Assembly: GCA_019747875.1 (NCBI GenBank)
Contig: JAIEQI010000013.1
Coordinates: 1-64,000 of the forward strand
DNA from: Candidatus Obscuribacterales bacterium
GTDB lineage: Bacteria; Cyanobacteriota; Vampirovibrionia; Obscuribacterales; Obscuribacteraceae
Length of the DNA: 64,000 nucleotides
Direction: 5' to 3'
In this document: piece by piece, positions 2,164-5,771 of the stretch
How positions within the stretch are numbered: the stretch's first letter is position 1
How the letters are laid out: each line of letters begins with the position of its first letter
Made by a program: the position numbers and the translations under genes
Notes under the pieces: model-generated
What the model saw: only the letters and a program-made list of their open reading frames with translations
The model's database searches: none
Told to the model about the DNA's origin: nothing

Positions 2164-2193
2164 TTGAGAAACCAGCGTCTAACAAAATATGGT
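2164..2193 (+). promoter_or_regulatory. Sigma-70-like promoter for the RNA candidate
   Basis: TTGAGA (2164-2169) and TATGGT (2188-2193) are separated by 18 bases. Transcription would begin near 2200, immediately before the structured segment. Prediction from sequence only. Confidence 0.4.
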
Positions 2194-2199
2194 GACAAA

Positions 2200-2375
2200 A
2201 TCCCCCTAATAAAATTAGGGTCACCGTAGAAGGAAACACAAGATAACGCAGCATCCCCAGTGGGGGGCTTGAGGGATCGAGCCTGTTGGCGCAACACCAA
2301 CCCTGCGGACATTTCAAGAAAATCGAGAATGCAGAAAGATCGGCGGGTCCACGGGGCAGCCGATCTTTCTTGTTA
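2200..2375 (+). ncRNA. Candidate structured small RNA with intrinsic terminator
   Basis: Between two genes lies a segment that can fold into a compact cloverleaf-like shape. A closing stem CGCAG (2247-2251)/CTGCG (2303-2307) encloses three hairpins: CCCC/GGGG (2255-2265), CTTGA/TCGAG (2268-2281) and GTTGG/CCAAC (2285-2301). A 7-bp hairpin CCCTAAT/ATTAGGG precedes it near 2204-2220. A 12-bp perfect stem (2333-2344 with 2359-2370) followed by a T-rich run ends it, as in an intrinsic terminator on the plus strand. It is not a tRNA: it lacks the T-arm and acceptor consensus. I do not recognise it as 6S, SRP, tmRNA or RNase P RNA. A riboswitch is unlikely because the terminator is followed by about 410 bases before the next gene. 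Confidence 0.45.
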
Positions 2376-2787: not shown

Positions 2788-4080
2788 ATGGAAAATGAAG
2801 AGATCAAAAACAACAAGTCCGCTGAAAATCAGAAGGACGTAAGCGATTCGAAGTCAGTTGAAGAGAGCGCTCGCGATGGACTTTTCAGTGAAGCAATGAA
2901 GGAACTCGGTATGCCGGATGGCAAGCCGAAACCTACTTCTGATCAGCAAAGTGGACAACCTGAACTGGGTAAGAACAGGAACACAGAACAGCAAACGCCG
3001 AATAACTATGAAAGAGATCGCAATCCAAGCGAGCAGAAGGCACCAGCCAATTACGAACGAGATCGCAATCCAAACGAACAGAAGGCACCGGCAAAAGAGC
3101 TGGAGCGCAATCCGAATGATAGGAAGGAACAATCGCGGGATCTTTATCACATTCGAGAAGATGAACGCCTGAAGGATATTGCTAACAATGGGAATAACCT
3201 GGGTGACCTTACCAAGAAACCGTTTGATCCGTCAGTGTTGAAAGACGGCAATGCTGGTAAGAGCTTGGGTGACCTGACAAAGAATCCGATTGATCCGTCA
3301 GTGTTGAAAGACGGCAATGCTGGTAAGAACTTGGGTGACCTGACAAAGAATCCGATTGATCCGTCAGTGTTGAAAGACGGCAATGCTGGTAAGAACTTGG
3401 GTGACCTGACAAAGAATCCAATTGATCCAGCAGTGTTAAAAGACGGCAATGCTGGTAAGAACCTGGCTGACCTGGTAAGGAATCCAATTGATCCATCAGT
3501 GTTGAAAGACGGCAATGCTGGTAAGAACCTGGCTGACCTCGTTAGAAATCCGATTGATCCTTCAGTGTTGAAAGATGGTAATGCTGGTAAGAACCTGGCT
3601 GACCTCGTTAAGAATCCAATTGATCCAGAGTTATTGAAGAACCCAGCCGATAAGGTTGAGCTTCCTAAGGATCTCGACAAGAACAACATCGGGGAGATGA
3701 TCAAGGAACTCACCACGCGCAACCATGATTATATGAAGCCGTTTGGAAAGGGCGGTGATGGTGATCACATTCTTCCGACTGGTGATCGCCTTCAGAGAAA
3801 GAATGGACAAGAGACGCTCACTACACCAAATGGTGACACGGTAACAGTTAACCCTGATGGTACATTCAAAACAACTGGTGATGTTCGCAAAATGAGCGAG
3901 AACAAGGACGGCACGCACACAATCACCTACGGAGATGGCTCCAAAGTAACCATTGGAAAGAATGGCATCCAAAAAGTTGAACGTGGAAATGATCGTGTTA
4001 GATTCTCAGATCTTGGGATGACCAGCATCAACAAGGCGGACATCTTAAAGCAGCTCAATCCGAGGCTCAAGACCCGCTAA
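2788..4080 (+). CDS. Hydrophilic repeat protein, unknown function
   Basis: A 430-residue, highly charged, Asn/Lys/Asp-rich protein with no signal peptide and no membrane helix. The first 130 residues are low complexity, with two NYERDRNP-type repeats and a third variant. Residues about 135-288 are seven copies of a 22-residue unit of the type GKNLGDLTKNPIDPSVLKDGNA. The C-terminal third contains short NGDTVTVNPDGTFKTT and YGDGSKVTIGKNG strands. These resemble the beta-hairpin repeats of cell-surface YD/RHS-like or wall proteins, but similarity is weak. The ATG at 2788 has GGAGGA eight bases upstream. I do not recognise the family. The repeat design suggests a solenoid or extended scaffold. 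Two hairpins lie downstream before the convergent moeB gene. Confidence 0.8.
   Translation: MENEEIKNNKSAENQKDVSDSKSVEESARDGLFSEAMKELGMPDGKPKPTSDQQSGQPELGKNRNTEQQTPNNYERDRNPSEQKAPANYERDRNPNEQKAPAKELERNPNDRKEQSRDLYHIREDERLKDIANNGNNLGDLTKKPFDPSVLKDGNAGKSLGDLTKNPIDPSVLKDGNAGKNLGDLTKNPIDPSVLKDGNAGKNLGDLTKNPIDPAVLKDGNAGKNLADLVRNPIDPSVLKDGNAGKNLADLVRNPIDPSVLKDGNAGKNLADLVKNPIDPELLKNPADKVELPKDLDKNNIGEMIKELTTRNHDYMKPFGKGGDGDHILPTGDRLQRKNGQETLTTPNGDTVTVNPDGTFKTTGDVRKMSENKDGTHTITYGDGSKVTIGKNGIQKVERGNDRVRFSDLGMTSINKADILKQLNPRLKTR
3190..3651 (+). repeat. 66-nt in-frame tandem repeat, seven units
   Basis: Seven units of 22 codons. Units 2-4 carry LGDLTKNPIDP and units 5-7 carry LADLVRNPIDP or LADLVKNPIDP. 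The two sub-types suggest stepwise duplication of blocks. Confidence 0.95.
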
Positions 4081-4224: not shown

Positions 4225-5412
4225 TTATCCGACAACGATACTCGGATCTACCTCGAAGGACCAGGCTGTAATGCCACCAGTCAGATTCCGTAAGTGTTTG
4301 AAACCATGGTTCTGTAATACTTCGATTGCCCGTCGCGAGCGTCCGCCGCTTTTGCAGTAAACGACGATATCTTTCTCTTTATCTAGTTCATCCAATCTCT
4401 GGTTCAGTTCTTGCAGCGGAATATGTACGCAGGATTCCAAACGGCCGAGTGCAACCTCTGGTGGCGTTCGCACATCGAGAACTACGAGCTCTTTGCCGGA
4501 TGAGAGTTCCTTTTTTAGTTCTATTGCGGTAATTTCCTTCATTACTGTGCTTTCCTTTGTTGTCGAAACTCGATTACTATTGGTTGTTGCTGTTGGAGCT
4601 CCCGGCTGATTCTGGCTCGCGCAAATCTCATCTTGATCGCGCAGCTCAGTTATTGTCGGTAGATTGCCACATACTGGGCATTTCGGATTTCGGTCGATTT
4701 TCAACTCATCGAAAGACATTGCAAGGGAATCGAATAAAAGCAATCGCCCTTTCAATGTTTTGCCGATTGAGCAGATGATTTTGATACACTCGTTGGCCTG
4801 GATGCAACCGATGATACCGGCAATTACGCCTAGAACTCCGCCTTCTGCGCAGTTCGGAATGGCATCTCCTTCCGGTGGCTCAGGAAATAAACATCTGTAG
4901 CAGGGACCACCGGCATAAGAAAAAACACTGGACTGACCTTCGAAGCGGAAAATAGATCCATACACGTTCGGTTTGTTCATCAGTACGCACGCGTCGTTTA
5001 CAAGATAGCGCGTAGAAAAATTGTCTGTGCCATCAATAACGATATCGTAAGCGGCAATCAGCTCCTTTGCTGTCGAGGCGCTAAATCGCTGGTCGTGCAT
5101 GCGGATTGTAATCTCCGGATTCAGTCTGGATAGTCGCTCTTTGGCCATCTGCACTTTTGATTTGCCGACGGCATCGGTATCATAGAGAACCTGGCGCTGA
5201 AGATTTGTTGCGTCAATCAAGTCGAAATCGACTATTCCGAGAGTACCTATCCCTGCGGCAGCAAGGTAGAGTGAGCTTGGACTTCCAAGACCGCCGGCAC
5301 CGATAATTAGTACCTTTGCCTGCTTCAGTTTCTCTTGTCCGGCAATTCCAATTTCGGGCAAGAGCAGATGCCTGCTGTATCGGATTTTTTCTGTACGGGA
5401 AAGAGAGTCCAC
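4225..5412 (-). CDS. moeZ: MoeB/ThiF-type sulfur-carrier adenylyltransferase with C-terminal rhodanese domain
   Basis: A 395-residue E1-like enzyme. It should adenylate the C-terminal Gly of a MoaD/ThiS-type sulfur carrier and then pass sulfur to it through the rhodanese domain. Visible features are the nucleotide-binding GAGGLGS (residues 38-44), the paired zinc ligands CYRC and CPVC, and a rhodanese domain from about residue 292 with active-site loop CKSGGRS (Cys353). This matches the fused MoeBR/MoeZ/Uba4 architecture used for molybdopterin, thiamin, cysteine or tRNA thiolation. Its start lies one base after the stop of the upstream MoaD-like gene, so the two are surely co-transcribed and the carrier is its likely partner. 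Which pathway it feeds cannot be told here; no other moa or thi gene is in the window. Confidence 0.9.
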   Translation of the reverse strand: MDSLSRTEKIRYSRHLLLPEIGIAGQEKLKQAKVLIIGAGGLGSPSSLYLAAAGIGTLGIVDFDLIDATNLQRQVLYDTDAVGKSKVQMAKERLSRLNPEITIRMHDQRFSASTAKELIAAYDIVIDGTDNFSTRYLVNDACVLMNKPNVYGSIFRFEGQSSVFSYAGGPCYRCLFPEPPEGDAIPNCAEGGVLGVIAGIIGCIQANECIKIICSIGKTLKGRLLLFDSLAMSFDELKIDRNPKCPVCGNLPTITELRDQDEICASQNQPGAPTATTNSNRVSTTKESTVMKEITAIELKKELSSGKELVVLDVRTPPEVALGRLESCVHIPLQELNQRLDELDKEKDIVVYCKSGGRSRRAIEVLQNHGFKHLRNLTGGITAWSFEVDPSIVVG

Positions 5413-5413
5413 T

Positions 5414-5674
5414 CTAGCCTCCGCTTAGTGCGCAGATGATATGCACGAGTTCGTTTCCTTTTAGTGGCATCGATAAATCGGTTACTTGATTGCGTTCCAC
5501 GAAGATCCTTATGTGTTGTCTGATTCCGTCTTGTTCGTCGATCATGCGGAAGCGAATGCCAGGATAGGCATGATCCAAGTTCTGGAGCAATTCTCTAACT
5601 GAACTGCCGTGCGATTCCACGATGCTTTCGTTCTTTGTATAGGATCTTAGAGGGCTGGGAATGTGGATCTTCAT
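5414..5674 (-). CDS. moaD: MoaD/ThiS-like ubiquitin-fold sulfur carrier
   Basis: An 86-residue beta-grasp protein ending in the Gly-Gly needed for adenylation and thiocarboxylate formation (C-terminal ALSGG). The body contains SVRELLQNLDHAYPG and a late HIRIFVERNQV strand, both usual for MoaD/ThiS. I chose the ATG at 5674 because the longer frame to 5746 would translate a REP-like intergenic repeat. It sits directly before the E1-like gene. Together they form a two-gene sulfur-transfer module; use in molybdenum cofactor, thiamin or cysteine synthesis remains open. Confidence 0.85.
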   Translation of the reverse strand: MKIHIPSPLRSYTKNESIVESHGSSVRELLQNLDHAYPGIRFRMIDEQDGIRQHIRIFVERNQVTDLSMPLKGNELVHIICALSGG

Positions 5675-5698
5675 TTCTATCACTTTTCTTGTGTAAGT

Positions 5699-5740
5699 TA
5701 GAAGCCGGCGGGACGCCGGCGCTCCCGGGATCGAACCAAG
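5699..5740. repeat. REP-like palindrome, family A
   Basis: GAAGCCGGCGGGACGCCGGC followed by GCTCCCGGGATCGAACC. The same 3' flank occurs in the copy at 21852-21888. It lies between the propeller gene and moaD on the minus strand and could shape the mRNA ends there. Confidence 0.85.
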
Positions 5741-5771
5741 GTCCAATCTTCAAATCGTCAGCTATTCAACT

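Follow-up and report, generated by a model that had tools for sequence, protein, structure and literature searches.

Genes and features at the locus

The stretch of DNA analyzed here (64,000 nucleotides, hereafter the window) begins with an ORF for a matrixin-like metalloprotease (9-1109; HEFGHALGLFGHS), which is open at the window edge and carries an N-terminal run of 8-residue GMPQGMGS repeats. An mqnD-like gene follows on the forward strand (1176-2021; cluster c16), and this gene is also the neighbor of an RNA copy in genome G002 (locus L106) and lies two genes away from one in G013 (L103). Behind mqnD, the terminator assumed in the original prediction is represented by a terminator-like hairpin on the same strand (2077-2114), with an 11-bp stem (2077-2087/2098-2108) and then CGTTTT. 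Beyond the RNA, positions 2788-4080 encode a 430-amino-acid protein in which a repeat of the type NLGDLTKNPIDPSVLKDGNAGK occurs about seven times in tandem, and for which Pfam offered no convincing family and only weak Med26 and Tcp10_C matches. On the reverse strand, inspection of the translation by eye places a MoeB/ThiF-like E1 enzyme with a C-terminal rhodanese domain at 4225-5746, adjoined by a small ThiS/MoaD-like ORF.

On the forward strand, the RNA lies between mqnD and the 430-residue protein. Its conserved core (2244-2317), of about 75 nt, comprises a four-way junction and a 3′ RnCAnUU tail, and scores 90.6 and 85.7 bits with covariance models R1 and R2, the former built from 31 copies and the latter a broader model. 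Minimum free energy and centroid structures, with or without context, are the same: a closing stem around three hairpins at 2247-2307, exactly where a cloverleaf had been proposed. The closing stem pairs CGCAG (2247-2251) with CUGCG (2303-2307), and alignment pair counts show 99.8% of its pairs kept, with an A-U to G-C double change in one of them. Hairpin 1 (2255-2264) reads CCC-CAGU-GGG in the window (consensus CUC-CAGN-GAG), and its middle pair covaries among UA, CG and AU. Hairpin 2 (2266-2283; GGCUUG-AGGGAU-CGAGCC) has double changes in all six pairs, while hairpin 3 (2285-2301; GUUGG-CGCAACA-CCAAC) has them in three. Loop counts assign the window copy to a derived subtype (B), in which the hairpin 3 loop is CGCAACA; this subtype occurs in genera g1 and g11, and the loop is GGCAGCA in other copies. 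Directly 3′ of the closing stem lies GACA (2308-2311), whose CA is present in 105 of 107 copies.

Downstream of the core is an intrinsic-terminator-like hairpin (2333-2370) with the predicted 12-bp perfect stem (2333-2344/2359-2370), a 14-nt loop and a weak T tract, TGTTAGTT. Upstream, the minimum free energy fold contains a bulged hairpin (2191-2225), which is unaligned in blastn matches and missing from other copies; sequence conservation is confined to 2244-2317, and the flanks have diverged. The folding energy of the junction alone is only slightly better than that of shuffled sequences (z = −1.7), and that of 2190-2380 gives z = −3.6, equaled by none of 200 shuffles. Single-base length differences between copies leave no reading frame intact, so the unit is indeed without a coding frame, as had been proposed. 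The proposed sigma-70-like promoter fared less well. The sequence TTGAGA-18-TATGGT is present (2164-2193, forward strand), but its 9/12 match is at about the chance rate, with some 1.3 such matches expected per 900 bp, and other copies do not retain it, leaving its status as a promoter unsupported. The window copy could instead be transcribed by read-through from mqnD.

Covariation and phylogenetic extent

Comparative evidence for the fold is decisive. Across 107 copies aligned to the model (alignment A2), 95.6% of cells are paired, and double-changed cells number 354, against 119.9 in shuffles. As expected of a structured noncoding RNA, these compensatory changes affect 12 of 19 pairs, spread over all four helices, which indicates that the helices are under selection. 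Shifting the pairing partners abolishes the signal, a MAFFT alignment (A1) used for comparison agrees (39 double changes against 9.4 in shuffles), and a scan of A2 for mutual information, blind to structure, draws its top pairs from hairpins 1, 2 and 3.

The loops are also informative. The hairpin 2 loop is AGGGAU in 102 of the 107 copies and AGUGAU in three, while the pair that closes it varies among C-G, G-C, U-A and A-U. Since the closing pair varies around a constant loop, and three copies have GUGA, the loop is most plausibly a GNRA tetraloop, GGGA or GUGA, that an A-U pair closes. Furthermore, base 1 of the hairpin 1 loop covaries with base 6 of the hairpin 3 loop (C-C in 81 copies, A-U in 7, A-C in 6; Fisher p = 1.7e-7, a value that ignores the relatedness of the sequences). 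This coupling suggests that the loops of hairpins 1 and 3 are in contact, which would fit a tertiary fold.

A blastn search with 2150-2400 matched the core alone, hitting 22 of 60 related genomes, each at several loci. Model R1 extended this to 51 of 53 genomes in Obscuribacterales, an order of non-photosynthetic cyanobacterial relatives, with 48 of 50 from the same family and all three from the sister family. Model R2 finds 113 copies in the same 51 genomes, usually 1-3 per genome within a range of about 1-6 (four in G000). The two genomes without a match, G021 and G022, have assemblies in which the glmU locus is missing or cut just upstream, so the RNA may have escaped detection there. Outside the order, R2 matches none of the remaining 331 genomes of the class, and R1 none of 291 further genomes of the phylum. 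Scanning 84,980 GTDB species with a pattern recovered named records of Candidatus Obscuribacter, Obscuribacterales and Melainabacteria; a few additional matches in Stutzerimonas, a filamentous cyanobacterium and Sedimentitalea fail the covariance model and are therefore attributed to chance. A phage origin was also considered and rejected: the strict pattern is absent from viral contigs, and none of the 80 loci recovered by a looser viral scan matches the model.

The window matches no Rfam 15 family at the gathering cut-off, and permissive E-values gave only spurious sub-threshold matches for 2020-2790 and eight homologous loci. We found no paper on RNAs of Obscuribacter or Obscuribacterales in the open-licence literature. 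With compensated stems, no Rfam match and homologs confined to one order, the expectation of a lineage-specific RNA outside known families is borne out. The best explanation of 2244-2370 is one paralog of an Obscuribacterales-specific small RNA with a compact, structured fold.

Recurrent loci, promoters and terminators

What had been described as a single site is one copy of a multicopy family that recurs at two loci, with some copies in mRNA leaders. At the first locus, the RNA is flanked by glmU and a divergent gene for a matrixin-like metalloprotease, and at the second it lies downstream of a MerR-family gene. Both arrangements recur in both families, and the glmU and merR loci look ancestral, with the RNAs there as two paralogs. 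In family f1, about 30 copies have glmU as their next sense gene, and a terminator usually intervenes. In the sister family no terminator intervenes, and the glmU start follows 24-26 nt after the core. Genus g23 has lost the glmU neighborhood, and neither its copies nor most of those at the merR locus have a sense gene within reach downstream. Matrixin-like genes adjoin several RNA copies, at the glmU locus and at L126 and L134.

A terminator-like hairpin within 90 nt 3′ of the core, as befits an independent transcription unit, is present in 76 of 107 copies, compared to 54 of 535 shuffles (10%). Evidence on transcription initiation is more locus-specific. No enrichment of a generic E. coli sigma-70 promoter was found directly before the core. 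Copies at the glmU locus, however, carry a AACGAAAGGTTAA-like element in 16 of 40 cases (0.4% of shuffles) and a TAYAAAT-like element in 22 of 40 (8% of shuffles). Where both occur, the first lies exactly 28 nt before the second in nearly all copies (29 in one), and the 28-nt spacing is repeated in the sister family at L384. TAYAAAT itself stands at varying distances from the core. This enrichment, together with the fixed spacing, is good evidence that glmU-locus copies have a promoter of their own, equipped with an activator site. Neither element is present in the window copy. No regulon of the upstream element was found elsewhere. A Pho-type regulon was discarded, since the element turned up almost solely at the RNA and the other near matches had no phosphate genes.

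A minority of copies lie in leaders, lack terminators and stand about 18-67 nt 5′ of start codons with Shine-Dalgarno (SD) sequences. They precede genes for Usp proteins (L129, L141, L143), a DUF2383 protein (L160) and, in G024 and G033, genes of a genomic island, with no obvious common theme. The island (L379, 12805-13434; L380, 4126-8302) holds two and four divergent RNA copies, each preceding a small gene, and among its products are an HD-type phosphohydrolase and an exonuclease-like protein (PHROGs). At L128 (G066) and L130 (G015) the RNA is tandemly duplicated around one gene, with copies on both sides of a 172-amino-acid ORF (MSDYIAFFASPASFxELR) that adjoins, by eye, a glycosyltransferase-like gene. 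Other copies in genus g1 follow small ORFs that end in CxNGICxVxWKPxxx and a stop codon (L109, 2511; L112, 2464; L159, 2530), and the RNA core begins right at that stop codon. These ORFs are predicted to encode an undescribed small protein.

Candidate roles of the RNA

The anatomy of the family is most consistent with a free-standing RNA that competes with the leader copies for one binding partner, a reading to which we assign a probability of roughly 40%. The RNA, of roughly 100-170 nt, would be transcribed on its own, and its folded core would serve as the recognition element of one partner, either a protein or a ligand-loaded protein. Placed about 20-45 nt 5′ of the start codon, the same element in the leaders of Usp, DUF2383, sister-family glmU and island mRNAs would then mark regulated target sites, and free copies would act as a decoy for the partner. 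Conservation across the order, covariation, near-invariant loops, the coupling between loops and the terminators all favor this model, as do the glmU-locus promoter, the leader copies that lack terminators and lie close to SD sequences, and the two seemingly ancestral paralogs. Against it stand the absence of CsrA from 19 of 20 genomes, the minority status of the leader copies, the lack of an obvious theme among their genes and, for the window copy, the unsupported promoter and possible read-through from mqnD.

A close parallel is with the CsrB/RsmZ decoys, which are also free-standing and terminated, have elements that also occur in mRNA leaders, and whose classical partner is CsrA. The ARGGAU-like GGA loop of the Obscuribacterales RNA resembles a CsrA site and made a CsrA decoy attractive. 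However, CsrA (PF02599) is absent from 19 of 20 genomes of the family, G000 included, and this reading was rejected on that ground. In place of the several GGA loops of a CsrB-type RNA, each core has a single GGGA loop, replaced by GUGA in three copies, and conservation extends to the remainder of the fold. Hfq (PF17209) is above the cut-off in none of 13 genomes, with one sub-cut-off match in G000, so neither protein appears to fit well as the partner. An analogy can also be drawn to GlmY/GlmZ of enterobacteria, where two homologous small RNAs per genome are linked to amino-sugar synthesis, a link suggested here by the position next to glmU. The Obscuribacterales RNA has no sequence or Rfam similarity to these, and its glmU neighborhood is lost in g23.

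A trans-acting role by base pairing with target mRNAs, through a loop or the A/U-rich 3′ segment, is rather unlikely. A free-standing, terminated, multicopy RNA with a regulated-looking promoter at one locus and an A/U-rich stretch 5′ of the terminator would suit such a regulator. Conserved loops that are of GNRA type and covary with one another are better suited to tertiary contacts than to a seed, and the Hfq survey gives an Hfq-dependent RNA no footing in those 13 genomes.

It is also unlikely that the core is a ligand-sensing aptamer controlling the terminator that follows it, ancestrally for glmU. The family does share a compact junction, invariant loops and an often adjacent terminator with metabolite riboswitches built on four-way junctions. 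The rigidity of the junction, the glmU arrangements in both families and the copies 5′ of Usp and DUF2383 genes all speak for a riboswitch or attenuator. Yet contexts are mixed, rather than mostly upstream of related sense genes, and most copies away from the glmU locus have no adjacent sense gene to regulate, nor is there an Rfam riboswitch match. Moreover, complementarity between the 5′ arm of the terminator and its own core (12.85) is level with that of swapped arms (12.66, sd 0.22), and therefore no anti-terminator is seen for this arm. The 3′ arm shows a slight excess of complementarity (14.03, compared to 13.18 for swapped arms, sd 0.25).

A passive structure for 5′/3′ stability or processing, travelling with mRNA ends, seems quite improbable. 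Copies do sit in leaders and at mRNA 3′ ends (merR and the small ORFs ending in the CxNGIC motif), and several stand in tandem 5′ of successive island genes, but stability alone would not need near-invariant loops or two loci shared between families. A chance fold or tRNA relic is hardly credible: the junction alone barely exceeds shuffles in folding, and the cloverleaf-like outline, a third arm resembling a T arm (5 bp, 7-nt loop) and the 3′ NCA recall a tRNA, but strong covariation and conservation already refute chance, the closing stem has 5 bp, TPsiC and anticodon features are missing, and ARAGORN finds no tRNA or tmRNA in the window or 27 other loci.

The family is probably regulatory. 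Structured small RNAs are a familiar kind, but both the Obscuribacterales-specific family and its dual placement are apparently previously undescribed. We tentatively propose a new class of regulatory RNA, a four-way junction capped by a GNRA loop, which would be ancestral to the order, would act both as a free small RNA and as a leader element, and would be read by an undiscovered RNA-binding protein or ligand. If true, the system would stand apart from RNA regulation by CsrA or Hfq. The family covaries strongly and is present in essentially every sampled member of this order of environmental bacteria, including Candidatus Obscuribacter phosphatis, while relatives of the order lack it. Its occurrence both as a terminated RNA and in leaders suggests a directly testable regulatory circuit, and a family model would allow immediate annotation of existing genomes and metatranscriptomes.
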